Source of the DNA: a virus
DNA length: 35,350 bases
IMG/VR virus record: IMGVR_UViG_3300020213_000072
Coordinates: 1-35,350 of that record
Reading direction: 5' to 3' (one strand)
A model generated the notes under the pieces. The model saw only the letters and a program-made list of their open reading frames with translations. It was not told the DNA's origin and did not search any database. The translations under genes were made by a program, and so were the position numbers. Below are positions 1-35,350 of this stretch, piece after piece (the stretch's first letter is position 1; every line of letters starts with the position of its first letter).

Positions 1-295
1 CGTAACCGGAACCGTTACCGTAACCGTAACCGTCACCGGAACCGGAACCGGAACCGGAACCGTAACCGTCACCGATTCCTGATCCGTAACCGCAACCGTT
101 ACCGTAACCGGAACCGGAACCGTCACCGGAACCGTCATCGGAACCGGAACCGTAACCGGAACCGTCACCGGAACCGTAACCGGAACCGTTACCGGAACCG
201 TCATCGGAACCGTCATCGGAACCGTCACCGGAACCGTCATCGGAACCGTCACCGTCACCGAATCCTGATCCGTTACCGCAGACTACGCTTTCCAT
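1..295 (-). CDS. Gly-X dipeptide repeat protein, array type MESVVCG (partial at edge)
   Basis: The ATG at 295 lies inside the last codons of the small ORF at 283-360, in another frame, with the motif ATGGAAAGCGTAG. The protein begins MESVVCGNGSGFGDG and then alternates Gly with Ser, Asp, Asn, Tyr or Phe. Several Gly residues are replaced by Asp (SDDG), showing point decay. The frame is open to the window edge. It would continue at 35350 and end at 34987 if the molecule is circular, with a one-base phase problem at the join. No catalytic motif is present. Translation, if it occurs, should rely on coupling to the upstream stop because no ribosome site is visible. The head matches the array proteins at 4838 and 5100. 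Confidence 0.5.
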   Translation of the reverse strand, partial: MESVVCGNGSGFGDGDGSDDGSGDGSDDGSDDGSGNGSGYGSGDGSGYGSGSDDGSGDGSGSGYGNGCGYGSGIGDGYGSGSGSGSGDGYGYGNGSGY

Positions 296-360
296 AGTTT
301 TTCACGCAACGTGTCCCCTAAAAACTCAGCACCATTAATTAAATCTTGAATTGTTTCCAT
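283..360 (-). CDS. chimeric spacer mini-ORF (25 aa), left copy
   Basis: The mini-ORF begins METIQDLINGAEFLGDT and ends LREKLWKA. Its ATG overlaps the TGA of the preceding array ORF (TGATG), and its TAG lies inside the start of the next array ORF. The first 20 bases match the start of the Cys-rich gene at 5619. The middle matches the tape-measure gene at 15080-15123 with 43 of 44 bases identical. The end matches the 3' end of the gene at 4644. It is therefore a recombinant linker rather than an obvious gene, although the frame is open from end to end. Two more copies lie at 5035 and 5291. Confidence 0.5.
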   Translation of the reverse strand: METIQDLINGAEFLGDTLREKLWKA

Positions 361-599
361 CACCCGATTCCGTAACCGTTACGGTTACCGTCACCGGAAC
401 CGTAACCGTCACCGAATCCGAATCCGGAACCGGAACCGTTACCGGAACCGTAACCGTCACCGTCACCGGAACCGTCACCGAATCCGAATCCGGAACCGGA
501 ACCGTTACCGGAAACGTAACCGTAACCGTAACCGGAACCGTCACCGAATCCGAATCCGGAACCGGAACCGAATCCGGAACCGGAACCTAAACTTTCCAT
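360..599 (-). CDS. Gly-X dipeptide repeat protein, array type MESL (79 aa)
   Basis: The start ATG sits in the last bases of the DUF6948-like gene (13-base overlap, ATGGAAAGTTTAG), out of frame with it. The stop is TGA in TGATG, overlapping the mini-ORF at 360. The protein starts MESLGSGSGFG and is almost wholly Gly alternating with Ser, Phe, Asp, Tyr or Asn, ending GNRNGYGIG. The same head and tail recur in the right-hand array protein at 5356. I recall Gly-X repeat ORFs following DUF6948 genes in other phages, but could not check this here. It may be a real low-complexity protein or a by-product of an array in which several frames stay open. Confidence 0.55.
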   Translation of the reverse strand: MESLGSGSGFGSGSGFGFGDGSGYGYGYVSGNGSGSGFGFGDGSGDGDGYGSGNGSGSGFGFGDGYGSGDGNRNGYGIG

Positions 600-871
600 T
601 CAGGAACCCCCGAGATGCTTTCTTTGGCTTTTTTGGTAACGTCTAATATTTCAATAGCCTCAGTCAGAACCACACTAGATACGGGAGCTGGAAATTTACA
701 TTCAAGGGGATGCGATACACCGTCGATTGCGAGCTGGCTTAAAGAGGCGGCACCTTTCCAAAACCATAACCGGCGCGCATTTTTAAGCGTGACCTCTTTA
801 CCATCTTTTTTAGACAAATTACCGGCAAAAACACCGGCGCTATTGGTTCTCACAATTACGTATTTGCTCAT
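587..871 (-). CDS. DUF6948-like phage protein
   Basis: This is a 94-residue protein beginning MSKYVIVRTNSAGVFAG, with the patterns NARRLWFWKGAASLSQLA and a C-terminal helix ending in PEWKV. These match what I remember of the DUF6948 family, small phage proteins of unknown function often sited in early or accessory operons. A strong AGGAG ribosome site lies eight bases before the ATG. It is the last ordinary gene of the minus-strand early operon. Its TAG stop is followed at once by the hexamer array, and the array ORF starts within its last four codons. The function is unknown. Confidence 0.75.
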   Translation of the reverse strand: MSKYVIVRTNSAGVFAGNLSKKDGKEVTLKNARRLWFWKGAASLSQLAIDGVSHPLECKFPAPVSSVVLTEAIEILDVTKKAKESISGVPEWKV

Positions 872-4654: not shown

Positions 4655-4850
4655 TCGCGTAACTCTTCCAATTAGAGAACTTGTAGAACTAAACACACAA
4701 AACGGTTTTTTAATCGGGTGCGTACTGGGAATTTTAGCAAAATATGACATTTTAATTTTAGAAGAAGACGCTGTCAGGCTTCGTGACGTTGGTATTAGCG
4801 TTCCTGAGCTGAGAGGGGACACGTTGCGTGAAAAACTATGGAAAGCGTAG
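4644..4850 (+). CDS. hypothetical protein, 68 aa, last gene before right arrays
   Basis: The start ATG overlaps the stop of the coiled-coil gene. The protein begins MNPNRVTLPIRELVELNTQ. It has a hydrophobic stretch (GFLIGCVLGILAKYDILIL) and ends GDTLREKLWKA. No family is recognised. Its last 36 or so bases recur in every spacer mini-ORF on both sides of the early region, so its 3' end has been copied with the array. The array ORF starts inside its last four codons, with the same 13-base geometry as at the DUF6948-like gene. Confidence 0.6.
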   Translation: MNPNRVTLPIRELVELNTQNGFLIGCVLGILAKYDILILEEDAVRLRDVGISVPELRGDTLREKLWKA

Positions 4851-5035
4851 TCTGCGGTAACGGATCAGGATTCGGTGACGGTTCCGGTTCCGGATTCGGT
4901 TCCGGTTCCGGTTCCGGTAACGGTTCCGGTTACGGATTCGGTTACGGTTCCGGTTCCGGATTCGGATTCGGTGACGGTTCCGGTTCCGGTTCCGGTGACG
5001 GTTACGGTTCCGGTGACGGTGACGGAATCGGGTGA
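4838..5035 (+). CDS. Gly-X dipeptide repeat protein, type MESVVCG, right copy 1
   Basis: This is a 65-residue protein starting MESVVCGNGSGFGDG and continuing as Gly alternating with Ser, Phe, Asn, Tyr and Asp, ending GDGDGIG. The ATG overlaps the end of the gene at 4644, and the TGA overlaps the mini-ORF at 5035. No ribosome site of its own is visible, so re-initiation is the likely route. The head is shared with the left array at 295 and the copy at 5100. Confidence 0.55.
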   Translation: MESVVCGNGSGFGDGSGSGFGSGSGSGNGSGYGFGYGSGSGFGFGDGSGSGSGDGYGSGDGDGIG

Positions 5036-5112
5036 TGGAAACAATTCAAGATTTAATTAATGGTGCTGAGTTTTTAGGGGACACGTTGCGTGAAAAACTA
5101 TGGAAAGCGTAG
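5035..5112 (+). CDS. chimeric spacer mini-ORF (25 aa), right copy 1
   Basis: This has the same 25-residue product as at 283-360, ending LREKLWKA, and starts in TGATG. It contains the tape-measure-like segment (DLINGAEFLGDT) joined to the copied 3' end of the gene at 4644. Whether it is translated is unknown. It is listed because the frame is conserved in all three spacers. Confidence 0.45.
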   Translation: METIQDLINGAEFLGDTLREKLWKA

Positions 5113-5291
5113 TCTGCGGTAACGGATCAGGATTCGGTGACGGTTCCGGATCAGGATTCGGTAACGGTGACGGTTCCGGATTCGGATTCGGTGACGGTTC
5201 CGGTTCCGGTGACGGTTCCGGTTACGGTTCCGGTTCCGGATTCGGTTCCGGTTCCGGTTCCGGTTCCGGTTCCGGTGACGGAATCGGGTGA
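5100..5291 (+). CDS. Gly-X dipeptide repeat protein, type MESVVCG, right copy 2
   Basis: This is a 63-residue protein with head MESVVCGNGSGFGDGSGSGF and tail GSGDGIG. It consists of Gly alternating with Ser, Asp, Phe, Tyr and Asn throughout. Start and stop overlap the flanking mini-ORFs exactly as in the other copies. The unit order differs from copy 1 after the first dozen residues, which shows independent evolution of the array body while the head is retained. Confidence 0.5.
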   Translation: MESVVCGNGSGFGDGSGSGFGNGDGSGFGFGDGSGSGDGSGYGSGSGFGSGSGSGSGSGDGIG

Positions 5292-5368
5292 TGGAAACAA
5301 TTCAAGATTTAATTAATGGTGCTGAGTTTTTAGGGGACACGTTGCGTGAAAAACTATGGAAAGTTTAG
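5291..5368 (+). CDS. chimeric spacer mini-ORF, right copy 2 (ends KV)
   Basis: This matches the other mini-ORFs except that its last codons read LREKLWKV. The end switches from the 4644-type tail (AAAGCGTAG) to the DUF6948-type tail (AAAGTTTAG) within the shared bases ATGGAAAG. This is direct sequence evidence of exchange between the left and right array loci. Confidence 0.45.
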   Translation: METIQDLINGAEFLGDTLREKLWKV

Positions 5369-5619
5369 GTTCCGGATCAGGAGTCGGATTAGGATTCGGT
5401 AACGGTTCCGGTTCCGGTGACGGTAACGGTAACGGATCAGGATTCGGTTACGGTTACGGTTACGGTAACGGTAACGGTAACGGATCAGGATTCGGTGACG
5501 GTTACGGTTCCGGATTCGGTTCCGGATTCGGTTCCAGTTACGGTTCCGGTTACGGATCAGGATTCGGTTACGGTGACGGTTCCGGTGACGGTAACCGTAA
5601 CGGTTACGGAATCGGGTGA
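5356..5619 (+). CDS. Gly-X dipeptide repeat protein, type MESL, right copy 3
   Basis: This is an 87-residue protein beginning MESLGSGSGVGLGFGNG and ending GNRNGYGIG, the same head and tail as the array protein behind the DUF6948-like gene on the other side. The body is Gly with Ser, Asn, Phe, Tyr and Asp. Its TGA overlaps the ATG of the Cys-rich gene (TGATG). The copy implies that a DUF6948-linked array once stood, or was copied, directly upstream of the Cys-rich gene. Confidence 0.55.
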   Translation: MESLGSGSGVGLGFGNGSGSGDGNGNGSGFGYGYGYGNGNGNGSGFGDGYGSGFGSGFGSSYGSGYGSGFGYGDGSGDGNRNGYGIG

Positions 5620-5795
5620 TGGAAACAATTCAAGATTTGACTGATCGTTGTGATTGTCGTGATTGCCTGTTGTTAGATCTAGAAGCGCGCTGCGCTTTTG
5701 ATTGCGACGATGATCGGTGCGCTGGCTGTCAGGAACTTGACGAAGCAAACGCACAAAAAGAGTTTGACTGTAACTGCGCGCTAGGGATTCGCTGA
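5619..5795 (+). CDS. small cysteine-rich protein, 58 aa
   Basis: The protein begins METIQDLTDRCDCRDCLLLD and has nine cysteines in 58 residues, mostly as CDC, CxxC-like and CxC pairs in a very acidic context (FDCDDDRCAGC). It could bind metal (zinc or iron-sulphur) or be a small secreted-like knot, but there is no signal peptide. The start overlaps the TGA of the last array ORF. Its first 20 bases are copied into all spacer mini-ORFs. The 3' end overlaps the convergent VRR-NUC gene by 15 bases, and no terminator is seen between them. Confidence 0.55.
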   Translation: METIQDLTDRCDCRDCLLLDLEARCAFDCDDDRCAGCQELDEANAQKEFDCNCALGIR

Positions 5796-7783: not shown

Positions 7784-8274
7784 TAAACAGTCACCTCATA
7801 TTCAATAATGACATCGAATCCAGTTGCGCCCTCTTGAACGGAATCAATATCAATCCTTAAAAATGCACCCGCAGCAATAGAGGCAATAGCGATACCAGAA
7901 TCAGGCTCAACAAACAAATCACCATCTGTGTATGGACTTGCCACCACAGAATTAAGAATGCTTGCAAACGCCCCTGCCCCGACTTTACGCTGAACGTCCA
8001 CAGTTATAGTTCCAGACACTCCGGCTTTTTTAATAAATAATTTAACCCCGCTTACTGTAATTCCGTATGGGACCCTAATGTAGTCTTTGCCGTCACCTAT
8101 CACACCCTGACCCACTATATTAAAAACCAAGGGCACTGCTGAAGCGGCAAACGCCTCGAGGTCTGATATTCTAGATTCGTGGTCATTAAAATTACCAAGC
8201 GCCTTTGTGAAGATTTCACTCTTTGTGGGCTCACCGCTTGCAATCTCGTTAGTTGTTAGTGCATCAAAAACCAT
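7783..8274 (-). CDS. tail fibre-associated structural protein
   Basis: This 163-residue protein has a short helical N-terminus (TTNEIASGEPTKSEIFTKAL, then NFNDHESRISDLEAFAAS) followed by a beta-rich domain (VSGVKLFIKKAGVSGTITVD and GIAIASIAAGAFLRIDIDSV). This is the usual build of fibre-base or adhesin-like tail proteins. A GGGGGAG site precedes the ATG. It is encoded between the tail-tip protein and the collar-like fibre. Confidence 0.6.
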   Translation of the reverse strand: MVFDALTTNEIASGEPTKSEIFTKALGNFNDHESRISDLEAFAASAVPLVFNIVGQGVIGDGKDYIRVPYGITVSGVKLFIKKAGVSGTITVDVQRKVGAGAFASILNSVVASPYTDGDLFVEPDSGIAIASIAAGAFLRIDIDSVQEGATGFDVIIEYEVTV

Positions 8275-8283
8275 AAACTCCCC

Positions 8284-10833
8284 CTAAAAAATTAAACTAA
8301 CCCCAAAAGTATCAGGATCATTGTCTTGCATTCCAAACTGATCAGTAATGTATCCAGCCGTTGCCCTTTCGTCTTCTGTAGAACTATTATAGTCAGGGTT
8401 TGAATTTTCGGTAATAACACCGCACCTGGTAAAAGTGTTAGCCAAATCTTCTAAATCAAAATTAGAATCTGAAATGGATTTTTTTACCGACTGAACGGCA
8501 GCAATCTTTTTCTTATCTGTGCTTCCTAGCCTCTCGTAAAGTTTTTCGTGGGAAAGTTGAACCTTATCGTTAATTTCAAGCCTTGAACCCTTCATTTTGG
8601 TTTGGATATTAACCTCTGATGAGGCGACCGAAAGAATAAACGCCAAACGATTGGCCAATATCTGCGCGGCTGCTGGGTCAGTCAAAATAGAATCTAGCTC
8701 ATATTCTCTGTTTGTTTTGACAAGGTAAGTACCAGATTTTGTGACCGCAGAAGCCTGTAGAAACGAAGACGCAAAAGATTTTGAATTGTATTCTTTTTGA
8801 AGATAATTTACTTTAGCCGTTTTAATTATCCTGGATGAGTCGGAATTAATTTTAAAACTTAAAATATCCCTTTCGTCATATTTTTCTATTCCGCACCCAC
8901 GCTTTGGAGATAGAACGTTATATTTGAATTTAAAGTCATTAGTCTGAATAAGAGAGCCAAACACTGACTGATTGACTTTATTTATTACATCCCTGGCTGT
9001 CGGTGTTTTTTTATCTTTAACCTTGTGTGGAATTACAAGCGCCACGTCTTGAGAGGCAAGCTCCTGAGAGAGTAAAAACGATGCCGAATCAATATCAGAT
9101 GCAGATATTCCAACCGACAAAAGAACGTCTTTTACAATATCTGATGCTGTTAGAATTAATGACCCAGAGGTAAGGCCGTTTATAGTTTTACCAAGACAGT
9201 CACACGATAAAACTGATTTACCCTCCGTGTAATAGTTTGGGGATTTATACCTTGCAGACGCTGTATCCGTATATGTAGAAACGGACTTTAAAGTAATCTG
9301 AAAAGGAGAGTCAATTGACAAAACCTCAAAATAGTCAGCATGTCCAACAGCCCTGACCCAATCTGACGGTCGAAGCTCCATATCAAAAATAGTACCTAAC
9401 CCTGTCACCGTTCTAGATGCGTTTGTAAAAGTAACCAAGCCTGTTATGCTTCTGACTTGAGCGATATTAAATTCAGCCAAAGGGTTAATATTTATTTTAG
9501 CGTCAGTCGCATTGACGGTGTAGTCCCGATTATATACGAGTGTTTTGTCGTCTAAATAAACATCGCTCACCGCTATTCTGGTAATAACTGCCCCAACTAA
9601 AGGGGGCGTTACTAAAAACGGTGAAAAGAAAATTCTATTTCCAGATACCCTTAGTATCCGAGTAGATTCAGACCCAACCGTAATCCTGTCGTCTGCTCTA
9701 AAGTCGGAAGAATTAACAACATCCACAAACCTTAAAGAATTAGAGGCGCTAACCGTAGTTGACGGCTGTTTTAACGAGTGGCCAGCCACCAAGTGAATAC
9801 GGTTCATATACCTTTTTGAAATCTCAGGAATGACTTCAATAGAACCAGAGTCAGACCCACCTTCATACTCCTCTGATAGCTCTAGAGTTGTATTGTTAGC
9901 AATGGATTCAATGGTGTATTCTGTAGCATCAAAAGAAAATACGATTCTATCGCCCGGATTGAGTTCCGATAAGAAACTCGTGCCAACTCCGGACACAGTC
10001 GCTGACGCGCTTGTAGCGGTGGCGGTCCCAGTTAGTGGATACGTTTTATTTACAAGAGAATCAATATTGCTTGGTACGTGTCCCCAAACTCTGCCGTAGA
10101 TTTTTCTTTGTTTTGTGAGTAGGTCTAACTCACTTACGCGCGCGCCTAATAGGTCTTCTAAATTATCACAAGGCACGTTTGCCCTGATTTCATTTAGTGC
10201 GTCCTTAAGAGTGAGCTTAACGGAATTATCACTCCACGACTTTTTTTCAACAACCCCACGGTATAAGAGTTTGGCTTCTGTAATCGGAAGATTGCGAGAG
10301 TAGGAATAAACAAGGCACTTTTTATTTTCAAAAGTTAGCTTGTCGTAAACCGGAGACCAAAAGTCCTTATCGTTTACAAAATTAACCGACCCAGACCCCT
10401 CAAGGGCCAGCCCAAATTGATTTTGGTTATCTAGTTCAAATCCGAAGTCGGATGTGCCGTTTAATAATCCCCTCCAATTAACATCAAATCCGGACGCTAG
10501 GTCGTGCGGAAGATGAATAGAGACGTTACTAAAAAAAAACTGGCACTCAATAACAACAAACTTTGTGTTTGGATTTACAGAATCTGACGTGCGTACGTAC
10601 AGAATGCCAGCTTGCCTATCCCAGTAATATGTATTAGCAACGACTCCGCCAAGGGATGAGACTGAAATTAGGGAAACTCCAGAGTCCTCAACAGAGTACA
10701 CAACACGAGTAAGTGGGAGTTTATAAATTGTTCCAGAATTTAGAGTCCATCCCCTGGCTAAAATAGAATTATGTAGAACGACTAGGCCGATTTTCTCGCT
10801 TTGTGGTGTTAGCTGAAAGTCAGAATAGTTCAT
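8284..10833 (-). CDS. large tail-tip / baseplate hub-like protein, 849 aa
   Basis: This is an 849-residue structural protein in the tail module. Its length, its position after the tape measure and its mixed content suggest the tail-tip hub: an N-terminal beta domain (about 1-200), a hub-like region (about 200-270), an inserted Ig-like or barrel section with repeated GTSFLSELNPGDRIVF and GTIFDMELRPSDWVRA patterns, and a C-terminal region resembling gp27-like folds (KYNVLSPKRGCGIEKYDERD). The two GT.F..EL.P.D patterns about 160 residues apart look like an internal domain duplication. It should bind the tail tube end and carry fibres. The family is not identified by name. Confidence 0.6.
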   Translation of the reverse strand: MNYSDFQLTPQSEKIGLVVLHNSILARGWTLNSGTIYKLPLTRVVYSVEDSGVSLISVSSLGGVVANTYYWDRQAGILYVRTSDSVNPNTKFVVIECQFFFSNVSIHLPHDLASGFDVNWRGLLNGTSDFGFELDNQNQFGLALEGSGSVNFVNDKDFWSPVYDKLTFENKKCLVYSYSRNLPITEAKLLYRGVVEKKSWSDNSVKLTLKDALNEIRANVPCDNLEDLLGARVSELDLLTKQRKIYGRVWGHVPSNIDSLVNKTYPLTGTATATSASATVSGVGTSFLSELNPGDRIVFSFDATEYTIESIANNTTLELSEEYEGGSDSGSIEVIPEISKRYMNRIHLVAGHSLKQPSTTVSASNSLRFVDVVNSSDFRADDRITVGSESTRILRVSGNRIFFSPFLVTPPLVGAVITRIAVSDVYLDDKTLVYNRDYTVNATDAKININPLAEFNIAQVRSITGLVTFTNASRTVTGLGTIFDMELRPSDWVRAVGHADYFEVLSIDSPFQITLKSVSTYTDTASARYKSPNYYTEGKSVLSCDCLGKTINGLTSGSLILTASDIVKDVLLSVGISASDIDSASFLLSQELASQDVALVIPHKVKDKKTPTARDVINKVNQSVFGSLIQTNDFKFKYNVLSPKRGCGIEKYDERDILSFKINSDSSRIIKTAKVNYLQKEYNSKSFASSFLQASAVTKSGTYLVKTNREYELDSILTDPAAAQILANRLAFILSVASSEVNIQTKMKGSRLEINDKVQLSHEKLYERLGSTDKKKIAAVQSVKKSISDSNFDLEDLANTFTRCGVITENSNPDYNSSTEDERATAGYITDQFGMQDNDPDTFGVSLIF

Positions 10834-13840: not shown

Positions 13841-16011
13841 GCGCTTAGTCTCCTGCCGTTTCGGACCTGTTCGTTAACCGCATTGAATATTTGTTCGCCA
13901 CCAACACTCACGCTAATGGGGCCCTGATTTCCAATTCGTTCAGCAATAAGCAAAAGAATGTCTCGTGAAGATTCTTGAGAATTAATAAAATCTTTTAAAT
14001 CCCTATTTTGATCACGAGATAAAACGCGCTCACCGGGAGCTAGGATAGCTGGAAAATTATCTTTAAGACCAGTCCCCGGAATCTCAGTCATACCGGTCGC
14101 TAGTTTTTGTGACGCTATATTTGCTATCTGGACACCCGTTGCGACGCCGACCGTAGCGGCTAGAATAAAGTTAAACGGAGGAGGGGCAGACGATAACGCC
14201 TTTTGGATTGCCGCATAACCGTCAACAGTAGCTTGGGCCAATGCGGCCGCCTTACCTATTTCAAATAGTTCTTTGTTTCCTGTTTTAGTTAGTGTGGCTA
14301 GATTTCCAAATGATTGAGATACAGCCGACACCTTCTGAGCTTCTAGCTCTTTTTCTTTTTGAACTTGTTTCGCCTTTGCCGCAACCATTGCGTCAGTTAG
14401 TTTGTTTTGTTTGTCTAAGGTGCTGGCATTAGACGCGTCTTGACTCAATGAAATATCCTGACCATTTGCGGCCCTGATCGCGGCAAGATGCGCGTTTTTG
14501 CTTTCTTCTGCGCTTATGATTGAATTAATTTTTAAATTATTCTGTTCTAGCTCTGCGATTGATTGTTCGTCATTGAGAACCAGAAGAGCTTCGTTTCTCT
14601 TTTGAAGTGCCTCAATTTGTTTTATGTTGGCTTCTTCTGTAGCAATAACCTGTGCGTCTGCAGACTCTTGAGCAGATATTTTACCCTGAAGAAACGCCTG
14701 ATTGATTTGATCTAACTTAATAATAAAGTCGTCTAGCGGGCCTGTGTTTTTATACTTTTCAATTAACTTAAGCCCTTCGTCACCTGCTTTAATCTGGGCG
14801 TCTGAAAATGTAACCATCGCGCTAGACGCTGACAAAACATTGACGCTTACGTTTTCAACACCTCTGCCAACTCTTGAAAGACTTCCTTCTAATTTAATTC
14901 CAACCTGGTCTACCTCTGATATCGCATGGCTAAAATTAACTGCGGGAGTGGCCGCATCGGTTACATCTTCTTTAAATCCAGCAAACGCATCCTTGATAGA
15001 ATCAAGAGCAGACTTTCCCTTATTCGCAAACGAATCAAACGCAGTAGCTATCCCCTTAACGGGAGCGATAGCAATCTGAAACGTGTCTCCTAAAAACTCA
15101 GCACCATTAATTAAATCTTGAATAACGCTAAGAGCCGCCGATGCTGATTTAACTAAAAGAACCAACGTCTCGCCTGCAAGTATTTTTAGTTCCTTTTCGT
15201 TCTTACCAACCGACGCGGATAAGAAATCAAATAGTTTAGATACTTCTTTAATGCCGTCTATAACGACTTTATTTTCTACAACGACGCCGCCGATTGCTTC
15301 CTGAAGGTTATTGAACCTATTTGAGGCTTGAGATAGAGCTCCCGAAAAAGTATTGACTTGAGCCTGAGCGGCCCCCCCAAATCTAGAGTTAAGAGTTTCT
15401 AGTGTGTTTGCAAATGTTTGTGCGTCGGTTGTCCCTTTTCTAATCTCAATCCCTTGACGCTGAAGTGCGGACACGTTCCCGTTTGCTGCCTTAGCGACTA
15501 AGCTTGTGGCCTCCTCTAGACTCACACCAAGCGCGGCGGCCAAATCAGCAGCGGCAACAGTCGCTTTTTGTAATCCCTCTTGATCTAATCTTGTGAGTGT
15601 TTCAAGAAAAGCTCCCGAGCTAATAATAGCGTCATCCGAGAATGTTGTTACAGCCTCAAGACCTTCAGCAAACTTTTTAAAATCTTGTGTTGATTGTTTA
15701 GCGTCCCGTCCGGCAAGAGCAAACGCTACGCTTAATTTATTTAAAGCGTCTGCCTGCTCTTGAGCCGCGTGAATACCCTGCACAACAAACGTCTGGAATA
15801 ACTCACGGGCTACATCACCTAGTTTTTTAATAGATCCGATAAGGACCTGAGAACTAAAAACACCGGCAAACACTTCGCCGGACCTTTTAACTGAGCTGTT
15901 CCCTTTTTCTATCGTCTTTTCTAAAGAATCAAGGCGTTTGATAACGTCGTCGATTGCCTTGGCCGCATTCCCAGATGCTTCTAGCCCTATCTCAATTTTT
16001 TCATCTGCCAA
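13837..16011 (-). CDS. tail tape measure protein, 724 aa
   Basis: This is the longest coiled-coil protein of the tail module, directly after the chaperone genes. It has an N-terminal helical region with the heptad IDDVIKRLDSLEKTIEKGNS. A PhageMin-like core follows around 80-250 (LATKAANGN-type segment SLVAKAANGNVSALQRQGIE, then RFGGAAQAQVNTFSGALSQA). Ala/Gly-rich membrane-like stretches lie near 600-650, with a C-terminal PGERVLSRDQNRDL. At roughly 1.5 angstrom per residue it predicts a tail near 110 nm. The start is TTG. Codons for residues near 297-310 (VIQDLINGAEFLGDT) share 43 of 44 bases with the array spacers. Confidence 0.9.
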   Translation of the reverse strand: MADEKIEIGLEASGNAAKAIDDVIKRLDSLEKTIEKGNSSVKRSGEVFAGVFSSQVLIGSIKKLGDVARELFQTFVVQGIHAAQEQADALNKLSVAFALAGRDAKQSTQDFKKFAEGLEAVTTFSDDAIISSGAFLETLTRLDQEGLQKATVAAADLAAALGVSLEEATSLVAKAANGNVSALQRQGIEIRKGTTDAQTFANTLETLNSRFGGAAQAQVNTFSGALSQASNRFNNLQEAIGGVVVENKVVIDGIKEVSKLFDFLSASVGKNEKELKILAGETLVLLVKSASAALSVIQDLINGAEFLGDTFQIAIAPVKGIATAFDSFANKGKSALDSIKDAFAGFKEDVTDAATPAVNFSHAISEVDQVGIKLEGSLSRVGRGVENVSVNVLSASSAMVTFSDAQIKAGDEGLKLIEKYKNTGPLDDFIIKLDQINQAFLQGKISAQESADAQVIATEEANIKQIEALQKRNEALLVLNDEQSIAELEQNNLKINSIISAEESKNAHLAAIRAANGQDISLSQDASNASTLDKQNKLTDAMVAAKAKQVQKEKELEAQKVSAVSQSFGNLATLTKTGNKELFEIGKAAALAQATVDGYAAIQKALSSAPPPFNFILAATVGVATGVQIANIASQKLATGMTEIPGTGLKDNFPAILAPGERVLSRDQNRDLKDFINSQESSRDILLLIAERIGNQGPISVSVGGEQIFNAVNEQVRNGRRLSA
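15080..15123 (-). repeat. tape-measure segment duplicated in the array spacers
   Basis: These 44 bases inside the tape measure gene are identical, with one mismatch, to 308-351 and, in opposite orientation, to the spacers near 5044-5087 and 5300-5343. They are flanked by ATTCAAGATTT on one side, shared with the start of the Cys-rich gene at 5619. On the other side is AGGAGACACGTT, shared with one mismatch by the gene at 4644. The match is to unique coding sequence, not to the low-complexity hexamers. Confidence 0.95.
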
Positions 16012-16458: not shown

Positions 16459-16851
16459 CTATTTTTTTTTAGTGTTCGTTGTAGAGCTAAAGTCAACCGT
16501 CACACCTTCGATAGCAACGTCTTTAATTTCATTTAGCCATGTAAAAGCAATTGTTGTGAGTTTGGAAATATTTTCTAGCTGCATAACATCTTCTACCGAA
16601 TCGTCCGTTAATACATCGTTCTCTAGCTCTAATATAATAGGAGTACCATCGTGAGACATAAGACCGTCTACAGCCTTAATACTGTATTTAATAGCAAGCC
16701 TAGCTTGTGATGCTGTGATTGAAGTTTCACCAGACTTTAACAACGTCTTTGTTGAGACTTCGATTTTGTGTTCCCACTTGAATGGAGAAAACCAAAAAGT
16801 AAGATCTCCAAGTTTGACAGGTATTCTATCCGTAGTTCTATAAATCTTCAT
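16459..16851 (-). CDS. tail assembly chaperone, upstream (G-like) part
   Basis: This is a 130-residue protein upstream of the tape measure and downstream of the tail tube, the fixed position for the G-like tail chaperone that coats the tape measure. It begins MKIYRTTDRIPVKLGDLTFW and has helical segments (ASQARLAIKYSIKAVDG, LENISKLTTIAFTWLNEIKD). It ends in NTKKK at the slippery A9 run, followed directly by TAG. No strong ribosome site is visible before ATG 16851. Confidence 0.7.
   Translation of the reverse strand: MKIYRTTDRIPVKLGDLTFWFSPFKWEHKIEVSTKTLLKSGETSITASQARLAIKYSIKAVDGLMSHDGTPIILELENDVLTDDSVEDVMQLENISKLTTIAFTWLNEIKDVAIEGVTVDFSSTTNTKKK
16462..16470 (-). promoter_or_regulatory. programmed -1 frameshift site (A9 run)
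   Basis: On the coding strand the G-like chaperone ends ACT AAA AAA AAA TAG. Slipping back one base gives ATA GGT GTT and a frame open through 12 codons to ATG 16426 and on to 16001. The fusion is about 283 residues. A conserved -1 frameshift at this position is a hallmark of long-tailed phages. Confidence 0.7.
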
Positions 16852-16885
16852 GACAGCAATACTAGGTTATGCTTTTTTTTAATCA

Positions 16886-16911
16886 AGTCGTTATCTTTAG
16901 TCGTTATCTTT
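16886..16911. repeat. adjacent 13-base direct repeat
   Basis: AGTCGTTATCTTT occurs twice in tandem, bordered by T8 and T9 tracts. It lies 35 to 60 bases upstream of the chaperone start on its coding strand. It could be a regulator site or a spacer between the RNA element and the gene. Confidence 0.5.
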
Positions 16912-17025
16912 TTTTTTATTTCTTTTCTTTTTCTAGTTAACTGAACTGAATACTAATTCTTAGTAGTGTTCTTTAAATCAAGTTGCTCAGGTTTTTACTT
17001 ATAAGAAGTTAAATTCTGATTAATA

Positions 17026-17390
17026 CCGGTGGGCAAAAGGGAGCTATGATAAGATTAGCTTACCCATTATATTCAGATAGAGATCCACTCCTGGTGTCCT
17101 TTGATTACGAGCAAGCCCGCTCAAAGAACATAAGGTCTTGAGGTCGACATGTGGTCACGTCTTGTCCGTGCGGTCGCTGCTAACGCCGTCACTATTACCG
17201 CGGATTTAACCGCTGGATTCCTCTAGCTACAATACCGTATAGGCCGTTGGTCGCTTTGCCCACCGTCGGTTCGCAGAATGGCTGCAACCAACTATGCTAC
17301 ATGTTTCCATGGAGTCTATCGCTAGACCACGAGCTTGCACCGCCATTCGGCTATTCTCGCTTTGTCCCCGATGGTCGGGACTGCCTGCTG
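17026..17390 (-). ncRNA. candidate structured non-coding RNA in the late operon
   Basis: This gene-free, GC-richer block lies between the tail tube and chaperone genes. On the minus strand it folds into several stems. A long-range 11-bp pairing joins 17255-17265 with 17027-17037 and is perfect. GUCUA-GCGA-UAGAC lies at 17314-17327, and CAUG-GAAA-CAUG at 17300-17311. An 8-bp stem with one bulge is at 17268-17289, a GCGG/CCGC hairpin at 17200-17213, a 6-bp hairpin at 17146-17161, and a GUCCC stem at 17364-17381. Two loops are GNRA only when read on this strand, which is the late-transcript strand. No protein frame is continuous. It may be a large phage RNA (compare GOLLD or ROOL as classes), but no family is recognised. 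Confidence 0.5.
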
Positions 17391-17424
17391 TATAAAAAAC
17401 AAAATGAAATAAATCAAATTATAA

Positions 17425-17454
17425 AACAAAATGTGTGGCGTCTTCCTTGACGCC
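17425..17454 (-). terminator. terminator-like hairpin after the tail tube gene
   Basis: On the minus strand, GGCGTC-AAGGAA-GACGCC (17437-17454) is followed by ACACATTTTGTTTT. A second small hairpin GATCAA-GGA-TTGATC (17458-17472) abuts the tail tube stop codon. The T-run is interrupted, so termination may be partial, separating tail tube mRNA from the downstream RNA and tail genes. Confidence 0.5.
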
Positions 17455-17472
17455 CATGATCAATCCTTGATC

Positions 17473-18663
17473 TTAAACAAATCCGAGATATAGCTCTTCG
17501 ATTGTCCCAGAAGCTCCACGGTTAACGTTAAATGAAATTTCATCTACAAGTAGACCGTCAATATCTCCAGTAGGTAACTCTGTTGTTACGCAGTTCGGTA
17601 AAACAAACATACAAACAGACCCTAAATCTAGCTCACCGGCAACCGCCGATGGATTCCCAGCCCAGGCAAACAATGTATATCCGCTCTGTAAATCAAACTT
17701 TGTAAATTGGCTAATGTCTGCGTCGTCCATGTATGGGTTCATTGAGCCCGTAACTACTCGCTCTGTGATTCGTGAGCTTGTACGACCCGCACAGATTTCC
17801 TCCACAAATGATGCTGTATTGGAAAGAGCCCAAGACACCGCGTTAACTTTAAGAGCCGTTCCGTTTTGGTACACACATGCGTTACTCACAACAATCGGCG
17901 GGAGTGCGCTTTGATACGTAGGCGTAAATGGTGACGCCGTATTTGTTCGATCAAAGTTAAGCCCCTGAAGAGAGCACCCAAAGCTTGCAATCTGCCCCGT
18001 AGAAAAGTTCTCTAGAGCTAACTGTGTAACTCGGCACCCTGTGCCCTTTTGTAAAATTTCATTCGCCCAGTACACAGATGCTGAAAGAGTTGGATGTCCT
18101 GAGTTTGCAGTTAGATAAGTCTTAGCTTTTGAAACCTCAACGCTGTCAGAGAACACACCAGATGGCTTAGACGGGACAACCGTTATTGTGGCAGTGCCAG
18201 CACCCGTTGACTTAGCCGAAACGTAACAAGGGTGATGAGCGCCAGCCTCAAGCACAACAACCATGTCATAAAGATTATATTTAGAAATATCAGCGTCTTC
18301 AATTTGAAGCACCGATGCAGTATTGCCAGCCGCTTTAGTTGCTGACCGTGTGGCAATTGTTCTAGATGTTCCAAGTGCAGACTTAAATAGCTTGTCACCT
18401 TCAGGAGCGCCGCCCTCTGTGCCAGATGCTTTCATTTCAAACGGGATAGCACCGGCAAACGATTCGAGCCCTGCTCGTGGAGCCACTTTACCGATTGAGC
18501 TAGTAAGCACTGACCGCTCGACAACCTCTTTAGAACCGTTGGCCTCAATACCATCTAGGGTTGCAACGTAATCAGTTGCGGCTGCCGGAGCTAGGTAAGT
18601 ACCTTCAGTCACCTCAACCATCACACCTACTACGGTAGTATTTTTTATAATCGGGGTTGCCAT
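17473..18663 (-). CDS. major tail tube protein, 396 aa
   Basis: This 396-residue protein begins MATPIIKNTTVVGVMVEVTE and has the tail-tube pattern of a short N-arm, EGTYLAPAAATDYVATLDGI and a repeated beta core. The C-terminal half (TYQSALPPIVVSNACVYQNG and FAWAGNPSAVAGELDLGSVC) continues the barrel and probably carries an added domain. It has a strong AAGGAG site 9 bases before ATG, as expected for a highly expressed virion gene. It sits between the tail terminator and chaperones. Confidence 0.8.
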   Translation of the reverse strand: MATPIIKNTTVVGVMVEVTEGTYLAPAAATDYVATLDGIEANGSKEVVERSVLTSSIGKVAPRAGLESFAGAIPFEMKASGTEGGAPEGDKLFKSALGTSRTIATRSATKAAGNTASVLQIEDADISKYNLYDMVVVLEAGAHHPCYVSAKSTGAGTATITVVPSKPSGVFSDSVEVSKAKTYLTANSGHPTLSASVYWANEILQKGTGCRVTQLALENFSTGQIASFGCSLQGLNFDRTNTASPFTPTYQSALPPIVVSNACVYQNGTALKVNAVSWALSNTASFVEEICAGRTSSRITERVVTGSMNPYMDDADISQFTKFDLQSGYTLFAWAGNPSAVAGELDLGSVCMFVLPNCVTTELPTGDIDGLLVDEISFNVNRGASGTIEELYLGFV

Positions 18664-21938: not shown

Positions 21939-22351
21939 TTTGTCAGGTTTATTATTAATTCACCCTTGGTTGCGTTGCCGCTTACTGCCTTAACCGAAAT
22001 TCTAGACCCAATAGGTATCAACAAAGACTGTGTTCCGTTGCCGCCAGGAAAAACATAGACTTGATCTACTTCGGAACCGATACCACCAACCGCTATAACC
22101 ATGGTTTTACCAGACGAGTCGAAAATATTTAATTCATTAATTACGTCAACGGTGGAAGAAACTAACGTGGTGTACGCCGCAGTTGTTACATTAGTAACAA
22201 CGTATTCGTGACGCACTAAATGGACTTTGGATTTTCCAACAGAAGATGAAACCGTTGTCGTAAGAGATCCAGCAACCCTTACGGCGGCATAACCAGAAAC
22301 ATCTACGAACTTATCAAGTTCTCTGTCTGTTAGACCCGGAGATAGCGCCAT
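21935..22351 (-). CDS. head decoration-like protein, 138 aa
   Basis: This beta-rich 138-residue protein (ISVKAVSGNATKGELIINLT at the C-terminus, VVTNVTTAAYTTLVSSTVDV in the middle) follows the major capsid gene by one gene. Size and position fit a capsid decoration or head fibre base protein. Its stop overlaps the start of the fibre-like gene (ATGA). Confidence 0.5.
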   Translation of the reverse strand: MALSPGLTDRELDKFVDVSGYAAVRVAGSLTTTVSSSVGKSKVHLVRHEYVVTNVTTAAYTTLVSSTVDVINELNIFDSSGKTMVIAVGGIGSEVDQVYVFPGGNGTQSLLIPIGSRISVKAVSGNATKGELIINLTK

Positions 22352-22559
22352 TTATTTTTAAAACCTCAGGGTTTTGGTCCACGTCTACCAAAAACCACGC
22401 ATACCAAAACCCATCAGCAAACTGTATGTTGGTGTAATCAGCGCGGCCCATAAGTAGTTGATTAACTTTTAATTGAAGGCGGACCAGCCCATCAGCCGTG
22501 TCCGCCCTCAGATACATTCTTATCTGAGAAGGTTTTGAAATATTCCCAGATATTTGCAC
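22314..22559 (-). CDS. small head-module protein, 81 aa
   Basis: The protein begins MQISGNISKPSQIRMYLRAD and is predicted to be mostly beta (LVRLQLKVNQLLMGRADYTN, FWYAWFLVDVDQNPEVLKI). It directly follows the major capsid gene and overlaps the next gene by 38 bases. It is possibly a minor capsid or cement protein. No family is recognised. Confidence 0.5.
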   Translation of the reverse strand: MQISGNISKPSQIRMYLRADTADGLVRLQLKVNQLLMGRADYTNIQFADGFWYAWFLVDVDQNPEVLKINGAISGSNRQRT

Positions 22560-22562
22560 AGA

Positions 22563-23378
22563 TTAATTATTGTCTTTAAACAACAATGAACCGTTTTGCA
22601 TTTTTGCATGTCCCCATTTTTGGTCTAGAACGCGAAGCTTAGCGCCTGTTCCATACTCGGGAGCATCTCGTTCTCCGATTGAGAGTTGCTTTTGAATGGC
22701 GAACGCATAACCTTCTTTGCTGTACATATAGAACTGGTCAGCGGCTACGTTCGTGCTTAGTGCTACTTTAACGCCGTAAAGAGTTCCGAGAACTCCCGTA
22801 GGAATTACAGCCGAACCGTACTGATCCGCACGCACAAAGTCTGCGATTGCTAGAAGTTTAGCTTCTGAATCTGTTCCCATTAGGAACGTAGTTTCAGAAA
22901 GATCACCTTCCGCATCCAAAACGCTCTTTCTCATTTCAAGAAAGATAGCCTGTGTGATTGCTCCAGCGGTCGTTGTAGCTGTAGCGCCTGATTCCAAACC
23001 TGCAATGACTTTAACGTCAAAGTTTTTGGCCTGTGCTTTGGCTGCGCGCGAAGCAAGATCGACCTGAACGTCAACGCTTGATTCAATCTCATCCTGAGAG
23101 TCAACAATCCAGGCGACTGTAGACATCTGGTTAAGTACAAGTGGGTCGGTTGCGTACGTAACAGCAACCTGTGCAGCGGCAACCCCAGTCGCGCGGTCTT
23201 CCACTGCGAACGATCCAGCTCGTGGAACATTGATCGACTTACTACCTTTGCCCGCATACACAGATGCGTCCAACAATGTAGGCATCACTACTGCCTTAGA
23301 AATGAGTTCGCGCTGAACGAGAGACACGATCAAGTCGTTTTTCGTTGCAGTCAACGATGTATTATCAACAATTGCCAT
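22563..23378 (-). CDS. major capsid protein
   Basis: This 271-residue protein follows the scaffold gene and has a strong AGGAGA site. The sequence fits HK97-fold capsid proteins of the N4-gp56 / P22-coat-like type: an N-arm (TKNDLIVSLVQRELISKAVV), the E-loop (KGSKSINVPRAGSFAVEDRA), the spine helix (SRAAKAQAKNFDVKVIAGLE) and the A-domain strands (YGVKVALSTNVAADQFYMYS). It forms the icosahedral head shell. Confidence 0.85.
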   Translation of the reverse strand: MAIVDNTSLTATKNDLIVSLVQRELISKAVVMPTLLDASVYAGKGSKSINVPRAGSFAVEDRATGVAAAQVAVTYATDPLVLNQMSTVAWIVDSQDEIESSVDVQVDLASRAAKAQAKNFDVKVIAGLESGATATTTAGAITQAIFLEMRKSVLDAEGDLSETTFLMGTDSEAKLLAIADFVRADQYGSAVIPTGVLGTLYGVKVALSTNVAADQFYMYSKEGYAFAIQKQLSIGERDAPEYGTGAKLRVLDQKWGHAKMQNGSLLFKDNN

Positions 23379-34002: not shown

Positions 34003-34938
34003 TCAAAATTCAGCTGGAAATTTCATTTGTGTGTCATACACAGATTTTAGTCCGGACTTAGCAAAGCAATCAAATGCACCTGAGTCATACAGTTTTTGAA
34101 TTTCTGGACGTACTGGGTATTTATTGAATCTGCGCCATAATATCTCAACACGTTCAGATTTTAGCCTTACCGCCTTTTTTCCTCTAGTTGCAATTGATCC
34201 GCATTTTTTTGATGTAGCTCTAGAAGCAAACTCGAAGCGCTCCCATGTATCGGGAACGCCCGGCTGATTATAATTGGACAAAAGAAAAGAGCCCTGAGCA
34301 TCGTTTAGCGTTTCGATTAGTAAATTAAAATCTTCTTGTGTGTATCCCTTATAGTGGCCTTGATGTGCGTTTGGGTATGGTGGATCACAATAGAAAAATG
34401 TTTGCGGTGAATCCCATCGTTTTATAACTGATATGGCGTCATCACATTCAATGTGGATTGATGACATTCTGTCTATGTATTCTGAAAGATTTGAAACTTT
34501 ATTAGCCCAAGTAGCCGCATGATTTACACCAAACACCCCGGTGCGCCATCCAGCACCCTGGACATTAGCAAATGACATTTGAATGTCACAATAAAAAGAT
34601 GCGGCTCTTTCAACTGGGTCTAAAAAATCTTGCTTTCTAGTTTTGTGTACAGCTCTTGAGTACGTAGTCAAAGCAAGTCTGTCACAAAGTTTTGGCCCTA
34701 GAACTGGGTCCCTTAACGTGCGGTAGAAATTTATGAGATCTATTTTGTTATCGTTTATAACCTCCCTATAATTGTGAGTGTTTGTAACTTTGGGCCATGG
34801 TTTTTTAAATAAAACGGCAGCTCCTCCAGCAAATGGTTCCACGTAAACCGTATGCTGTGGGATTAGGGGGACTATATTATGCGCCATTCTTTGCTTGCCG
34901 CCATAATAAGAGATCGGCGGCCTTGAAATTAGTTTCAT
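34003..34938 (-). CDS. dam: Dam-type DNA adenine-N6 methyltransferase
   Basis: This is a D12-class adenine methyltransferase of 311 residues from ATG 34938. A TTG two codons earlier is possible. Motifs are YYGGKQRM at 11-18, the AdoMet site VYVEPFAGGAAVLF at 31-44 and catalytic DPPY at 185-188. D12 enzymes usually modify GATC, but the target cannot be read from sequence alone. It is convergent with the thioredoxin-fold gene with almost no gap. Upstream, a 36-residue frame overlaps its start and abuts the terminal hexamer array. Confidence 0.88.
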   Translation of the reverse strand: MKLISRPPISYYGGKQRMAHNIVPLIPQHTVYVEPFAGGAAVLFKKPWPKVTNTHNYREVINDNKIDLINFYRTLRDPVLGPKLCDRLALTTYSRAVHKTRKQDFLDPVERAASFYCDIQMSFANVQGAGWRTGVFGVNHAATWANKVSNLSEYIDRMSSIHIECDDAISVIKRWDSPQTFFYCDPPYPNAHQGHYKGYTQEDFNLLIETLNDAQGSFLLSNYNQPGVPDTWERFEFASRATSKKCGSIATRGKKAVRLKSERVEILWRRFNKYPVRPEIQKLYDSGAFDCFAKSGLKSVYDTQMKFPAEF

Positions 34939-34987
34939 CCACAAATTTAAGCATTGGATGCTGTGTCAATTCAATCGTTTCTTTCAT
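34879..34987 (-). CDS. short ORF between terminal array and dam, 36 aa
   Basis: The frame begins MKETIELTQHPMLKFVDETN and ends LLLWRQAKNGA. Its ATG overlaps the TGA of the terminal array frame (TGATG), the same geometry as the Cys-rich gene on the other side. It overlaps the first 60 bases of dam in another frame, so it may serve only to couple translation into dam. No family is recognised. Confidence 0.35.
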
Positions 34988-35350
34988 CACACGTAACCGG
35001 AACCGTAACCGTCACCGATTCCTGATCCGTAACCGCAACCGTTACCGTAACCGGAACCGTCACCGTAACCGTTACCGTAACCGGAACCGTCACCGTAACC
35101 GTAACCGTCACCGGAACCGGAACCGGAACCGTAACCGTCACCGATTCCTGATCCGTAACCGCAACCGTTACCGTAACCGGAACCGTCACCGTAACCGTTA
35201 CCGTAACCGGAACCGTCACCGTAACCGTAACCGTCACCGGAACCGGAACCGGAACCGGAACCGTAACCGTCACCGATTCCTGATCCGTAACCGCAACCGT
35301 TACCGTAACCGGAACCGGAACCGTCACCGGAACCGTAACCGGAACCGGAA
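34987..35350 (-). CDS. Gly-X dipeptide repeat protein, terminal array (partial)
   Basis: Read on the minus strand from the window edge, the Gly-X frame is open to TGA at 34989-34987 and ends GSGYV, then TGATG. It is the likely continuation of the array starting at 295. Units such as GNGCGYGSGIGDG recur three times. The terminal Val arises because the last hexamer runs into GTGTGATG. Confidence 0.45.
   Translation of the reverse strand, partial: SGSGYGSGDGSGSGYGNGCGYGSGIGDGYGSGSGSGSGDGYGYGDGSGYGNGYGDGSGYGNGCGYGSGIGDGYGSGSGSGDGYGYGDGSGYGNGYGDGSGYGNGCGYGSGIGDGYGSGYV
34990..35350 (-). repeat. terminal hexamer array with higher-order repeat
   Basis: The array contains the same CGGNNN hexamers, organised into a longer repeat. 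The marker GATTCCTGATCC (plus strand) falls near 35017, 35143 and 35275, and once more near position 73 of the window. Successive copies are 126 and about 132 bases apart, that is 21 and 22 hexamers. They differ by one extra ACCGGA unit. This is recent block duplication with single-unit slippage. It matches the left edge of the window, supporting circularity or terminal redundancy. Confidence 0.9.

Follow-up and report, generated by a model that had tools for sequence, protein, structure and literature searches.

A candidate orphan structured RNA in a gap between tail genes of a phage late operon

The late genes of the phage analyzed here are encoded on the minus strand almost without gaps, except for 621 b at positions 16852-17472, and the question raised by this locus is what such a stretch is doing among the tail genes. 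The window, i.e., the whole IMG/VR record of 35,350 b, corresponds to a tailed phage by its gene content, with a tape measure and a major head protein encoded. The large subunit of its terminase is of the classical type (Terminase_3/Terminase_6N), with matches at about 23%. Neither the tube nor the head protein had a match among 50,697 phage records, the tube profile retrieved no relative from the genome collection and no close named relative of the phage was found. A preliminary description of this DNA had pointed to the gap and to a GC-rich block inside it, and both were confirmed: the gap separates two complete ORFs, 17473-18663(-) and 16459-16851(-), and the block, which interrupts no gene, has a GC content of 0.523 vs. 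0.253 and 0.305 in its flanks.

17473-18663, minus strand: upstream late gene, 396 aa, tail tube by position, without a profile match of its own
17026-17390, minus strand: candidate structured RNA block of about 365 nt, supported by fold statistics, loops and composition
16459-16851, minus strand: downstream gene, 130 aa, tail assembly chaperone by position, with the same start residue as in relatives

The reading that we prefer, with a probability of roughly 0.55, is that the block was acquired and is a moron-like, stand-alone structured non-coding RNA of about 365 nt, without a match to any Rfam family and transcribed with or inside the late operon. The evidence for it is a strand-specific fold, a low ensemble diversity, special tetraloops, a complementary pair of pentaloops and the absence of the block in relatives. 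It is further supported by the lack of any protein match, by an empty site recognized in one relative (L031) and by the fact that no 13-mer of the block recurs elsewhere in the phage, directly or as its complement. Counting against a stand-alone RNA are the lack of a clear promoter or terminator and an MFE that is ordinary when compared with GC-matched DNA.

The predicted fold has two domains: five hairpins (P1-P5) on the 5' side and, on the 3' side, a branched part that is closed by a helix of 11 bp. Its elements are the following.

17364-17381, minus strand: hairpin P1, GUCCC/GGGAC, from the predicted fold
17329-17360, minus strand: hairpin P2, 5+4 bp, pentaloop AAUGG at 17343-17347, pair probabilities 0.95
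17313-17328, minus strand: hairpin P3 with the GNRA tetraloop GCGA (17319-17322), from the predicted fold
17300-17311, minus strand: hairpin P4 with the GNRA tetraloop GAAA (17304-17307), from the predicted fold
17265-17292, minus strand: hairpin P5, bulged, 7+4 bp, pentaloop CCAUU at 17277-17281, fully complementary to the loop of P2
17255-17265, minus strand: 5' arm of the long-range 11-bp helix P6, exact pairing
17027-17037, minus strand: 3' arm of helix P6, exact pairing
17095-17130, minus strand: long hairpin with an AA bulge and a CUUG tetraloop (17112-17115), pair probability 0.98-0.99

Several of these elements are named in the preliminary description and were recovered here; the set of three special tetraloops and the pentaloop pair are additions of the present analysis. 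The perfect long-range pairing of 11 bp (17027-17037 with 17255-17265) is present, and an inverted repeat of at least 11 bp appeared in 1.2% of the shuffles. The bulged stem, announced as 8 bp, corresponds to 17292-17282 paired with 17276-17265 (7+4 bp). The two GNRA hairpins, with the loops GCGA (17322-17319) and GAAA (17307-17304), were found as well, and they were rightly assigned to the transcribed strand only: with 4 Watson-Crick pairs required there are 2 on the minus strand vs. 0 on the plus strand. Together with CUUG, the special tetraloops in the predicted fold are three. The pentaloops AAUGG (17347-17343) and CCAUU (17281-17277) show complete mutual complementarity, a possible kissing loop between P2 and P5. 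Neither the temperature (20-37 C) nor the use of the Andronescu parameters altered P1-P5, the CUUG hairpin or the 11-bp helix that closes the 3' domain; the inner part of this domain did change.

The minus strand of the block has an MFE of -129.2 kcal/mol (z -3.3 against dinucleotide-preserving shuffles, with 1 of 500 as good), and the plus strand gave a z of -0.25. When the whole window was scanned for folding, the block scored about -4.0 and was outranked only by windows of hexamer repeats and by 22321-22680, where both strands score low; the other low-energy windows (4861-5760, 1-720 and 34921-35280) are the hexamer-repeat arrays. A separate observation in that part of the genome is a perfect inverted repeat of 10 bp at 22369-22412; it lies upstream of the gene for the major head protein, in a stretch where the folding energy of both strands is low. 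Taken alone, the MFE of the block is ordinary for GC-matched phage DNA and not decisive, because 9% of 932 GC-matched windows from related phages reached it. The ensemble diversity was 37.8, vs. a shuffle mean of 84.6, and values as low were found in 1% of the shuffles and in 1.6% of the GC-matched windows of relatives. As for the loops, the three special tetraloops compare with a shuffle mean of 0.06 (two or more in 0/300 shuffles, three in 0/932 GC-matched windows of related phages) and a fully complementary pentaloop pair was found in 0/600 shuffles, 0/316 windows of the own genome and 0/932 GC-matched windows, frequencies that overstate the significance because the loop features were spotted in the sequence before their tests were designed. 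A fold beyond composition on one strand, a mark of a structured RNA, is what the block has, with the exception of its MFE against GC-matched real windows.

The comparison with relatives gives a second line of evidence. Three scans provided tail-tube relatives on about 50 distinct contigs with a readable junction, and the block was absent from the tube junction in all of these approximately 50 loci. In almost all of them the distance from the tube stop to the next gene ranges from a slight overlap to about 90 b; the two exceptions with a larger spacer, L068 and L078, have short protein ORFs inside. L024 has hairpin-rich spacers too, at places other than this junction; none of the large spacers in these three kin resembles the block, and blastn across the whole kin records gave only short chance matches to it. 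L031 has a tube protein with 54% identity and a spacer of 39 b in all (GACTTGATTTAAAAAAAC...), which is similar to the final 38 b of the gap in the window.

16852-16889, minus strand: ancestral-looking spacer before the downstream gene, by its likeness to the entire 39-nt spacer of L031

By this likeness L031 appears to be a recognizable empty site for the block. Since this spacer is alike and the downstream gene has the same start residue in relatives, the extra sequence lies between the tube stop and about 16890. For the same two reasons, the shared start residue and the plain spacer of L031, the idea of an intron at the start codon of that gene was dropped. A direct repeat is present on both sides of the block.

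17410-17420, minus strand: 11-nt direct repeat, upstream copy, AATTTGATTTA, by sequence match
16974-16984, minus strand: 11-nt direct repeat, downstream copy, AACTTGATTTA, by sequence match

These copies of AAYTTGATTTA are the only exact AAYTTGATTWA sites in the window, and two or more sites of this type appeared in 4/100 shuffles. They may be the trace of an insertion or a promoter element, as a hint only. Single-sequence statistics, with their strand-specific and well-defined fold, and the comparison of the insertion site support the large structured RNA proposed in the preliminary description, and suggest that the block is a credible candidate for an orphan structured RNA.

The main rival to a stand-alone RNA is that the block acts in cis, as a long structured 5' leader controlling translation or transcription of the downstream tail genes (chaperone and tape measure), for example by lowering them relative to the tube protein. 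The signals around the block are as follows.

17430-17472, minus strand: hairpins directly after the tube stop codon, GATCAAGGATTGATC; GGGCGTC..GACGCC, without a T run
17389-17417, minus strand: promoter-like site TTGATT-17-TATACA, weak (8/12 matches), from which the RNA would start at the first hairpin

The terminator-like hairpin described after the tube gene does exist (GGGCGTC-AAGGAA-GACGCC), but its role as a terminator was not borne out, as no T run follows immediately and the terminator scan finds none there; hairpins after the tube gene were found also in relatives that have no block. For a promoter and terminator of its own the block has only the 8/12 promoter-like site, with a predicted start near 17382 and of a grade common by chance (442 sites in the window), and the scan gave no terminator. 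A leader would agree with the position of the block, on the same strand and directly upstream of the downstream tail genes, with the lack of any consensus terminator between the block and the downstream gene and with the start codon at 16851, which has no clear Shine-Dalgarno, unlike that of the tube gene. However, relatives do without such an RNA and express these genes with spacers of about 0-90 b, the block and the start codon are 170 b apart with AT-rich sequence between them, and the final 38 b ahead of this codon resemble the complete spacer of L031, all of which makes a leader possible but rather unlikely. Just upstream of the downstream gene we also observed a perfect tandem repeat of 13 b in two copies, AGTCGTTATCTTT, at 16886-16911.

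Searches for families and homologues of the block were negative throughout. Three Rfam runs, the covariance search suggested in the preliminary description (where no family membership was claimed), produced no family at gathering score and nothing but noise at E up to 10. The models of GOLLD and ROOL were unmatched at either level, and so were RF00044, the model of the phi29-type pRNA, and those of RNase P RNA, tmRNA and the known ribozyme families. A protein gene in a corrected frame, which would have spoken against an RNA, was rejected, since the six frames with stops masked had no match in Pfam or PHROGs. Comparison by blastn with phages and plasmids gave nothing, or noise. Of two DNA patterns searched in viral contigs, one gave none and the other an isolated 20-base match, in L020, without further similarity; degenerate multi-pattern scans, derived from read-through translations and applied to viral contigs as well as genome contigs, found none. 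The covariance models made for the two halves of the block had no match in 382 kb of kin sequence, nor had that of the 3' half in 28 whole kin records, each model being built from one sequence and hence weak. No homologue was found, therefore, at the sensitivity of blastn, pattern and single-sequence covariance searches, and the DNA-based and pattern searches reach only fairly close homologues.

Such an outcome would also be expected if the block were functionless, a decayed gene or random foreign DNA with a fold that is a by-product of its high GC, and the MFE within the range of GC-matched phage DNA points the same way. We consider this improbable in view of the strand asymmetry and low ensemble diversity of the fold, of the three special tetraloops and the complete loop-loop complementarity, neither reached in any control, and of the six frames without any trace of protein homology. 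Less probable still is an unrecognized intron or ribozyme that splices or cleaves itself from the late transcript. Like group I and group II introns the block carries GNRA loops and is inserted in a phage late gene cluster, at an otherwise conserved junction, and its size falls in the range of group I introns. Unlike them it is intergenic, with no gene interrupted and intact genes at both sides, and lacks a model match: neither the catalytic core of group I nor domain V of group II was recognized by the Rfam models, and no intron of either group or ribozyme family reached even E 10. That the block is a DNA-level signal, a packaging or replication site folding as single strand, is very improbable, for although there is an inverted repeat and flanking 11-nt direct repeats, the structure signal is restricted to one strand and uses loops special to RNA (GNRA and CUUG).

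Returning to the acquired stand-alone RNA, the block would be read from the minus strand, either from the weak promoter-like site or within the late transcript. The loops of P2 and P5 would kiss, within one molecule or between molecules, locking the 5' domain, and the 3' domain would be closed by the 11-bp helix. The RNA would accumulate late in infection and serve, in trans, as a folded scaffold or a binding partner, with a protein, the host or copies of itself as its target. An antisense action on the phage's own genes seems unlikely because no identity or complementarity of at least 13 bases was found between the block and the rest of the phage.

The closest known systems are ROOL and GOLLD, RNAs of phages and prophages with unknown function, often found near tRNA genes, that form cages held together by contacts among which are kissing loops; many GOLLD RNAs exceed 800 nt (PMC12286853). 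Like them, the block is phage-encoded and non-coding, with an intricate predicted fold and a complementary loop pair, which is all that is seen here of their homo-oligomeric cages. Unlike them, it has no Rfam match, is only about 365 nt long and lies between tail genes; the neighborhood of tRNA genes, a frequent but not strict trait of ROOL and GOLLD, is missing, as there is no tRNA or tmRNA gene in the 35,350-b window. By analogy, the block possibly works as they do, without membership being implied. The pRNA of phi29 is another phage RNA with complementary loops able to join molecules, and in this the candidate is similar. It is different in having no match to the pRNA family, in being about twice as long (the pRNA has 174 nt) and in belonging to a phage with a classical terminase large subunit, unlike phi29-type packaging. 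With phage morons it shares being an extra unit between conserved late genes, of deviant base composition and missing from the same junction of relatives. Known morons usually carry protein genes with their own promoter and terminator, whereas the block is a candidate RNA for which no clear signal of either kind was seen. That the block represents a new class of phage RNA, a compact particle that joins to itself via the pentaloops AAUGG and CCAUU and forms an RNA moron among tail genes, is a tentative and rather doubtful reading.

To our knowledge, few large structured RNAs of phages have been described, GOLLD and ROOL being the best known. If the preferred reading is true, the block would be a compact phage RNA of 365 nt outside every Rfam family, small and tractable for structure work, with an insertion site that can be compared with an empty one (L031), and its existence would demonstrate that a moron can be an RNA gene.

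Some other features of these genomes deserve mention. In the relative L024, a non-coding stretch of 731 b (8043-8773) that is rich in strong hairpins folds extremely well (z about -9.6); it shares no homology with the block and has no Rfam match. The window itself contains arrays of GGNNNC hexamers at 1-600 (-), 34990-35350 (-) and 4840-5620 (+), encoding Gly-Ser/Gly-Asp/Gly-Tyr/Gly-Phe repeats in several short ORFs that alternate with copies of a small ORF (METIQDLINGAEFLGDTLREKLWKA). Since both ends of the record fall inside a hexamer array, the assembly may break there. Within the small ORF beside these arrays, 44 b (308-351) are 98% identical to 15080-15123 in the tape measure gene, a likeness that suggests a recent copying event between the two.
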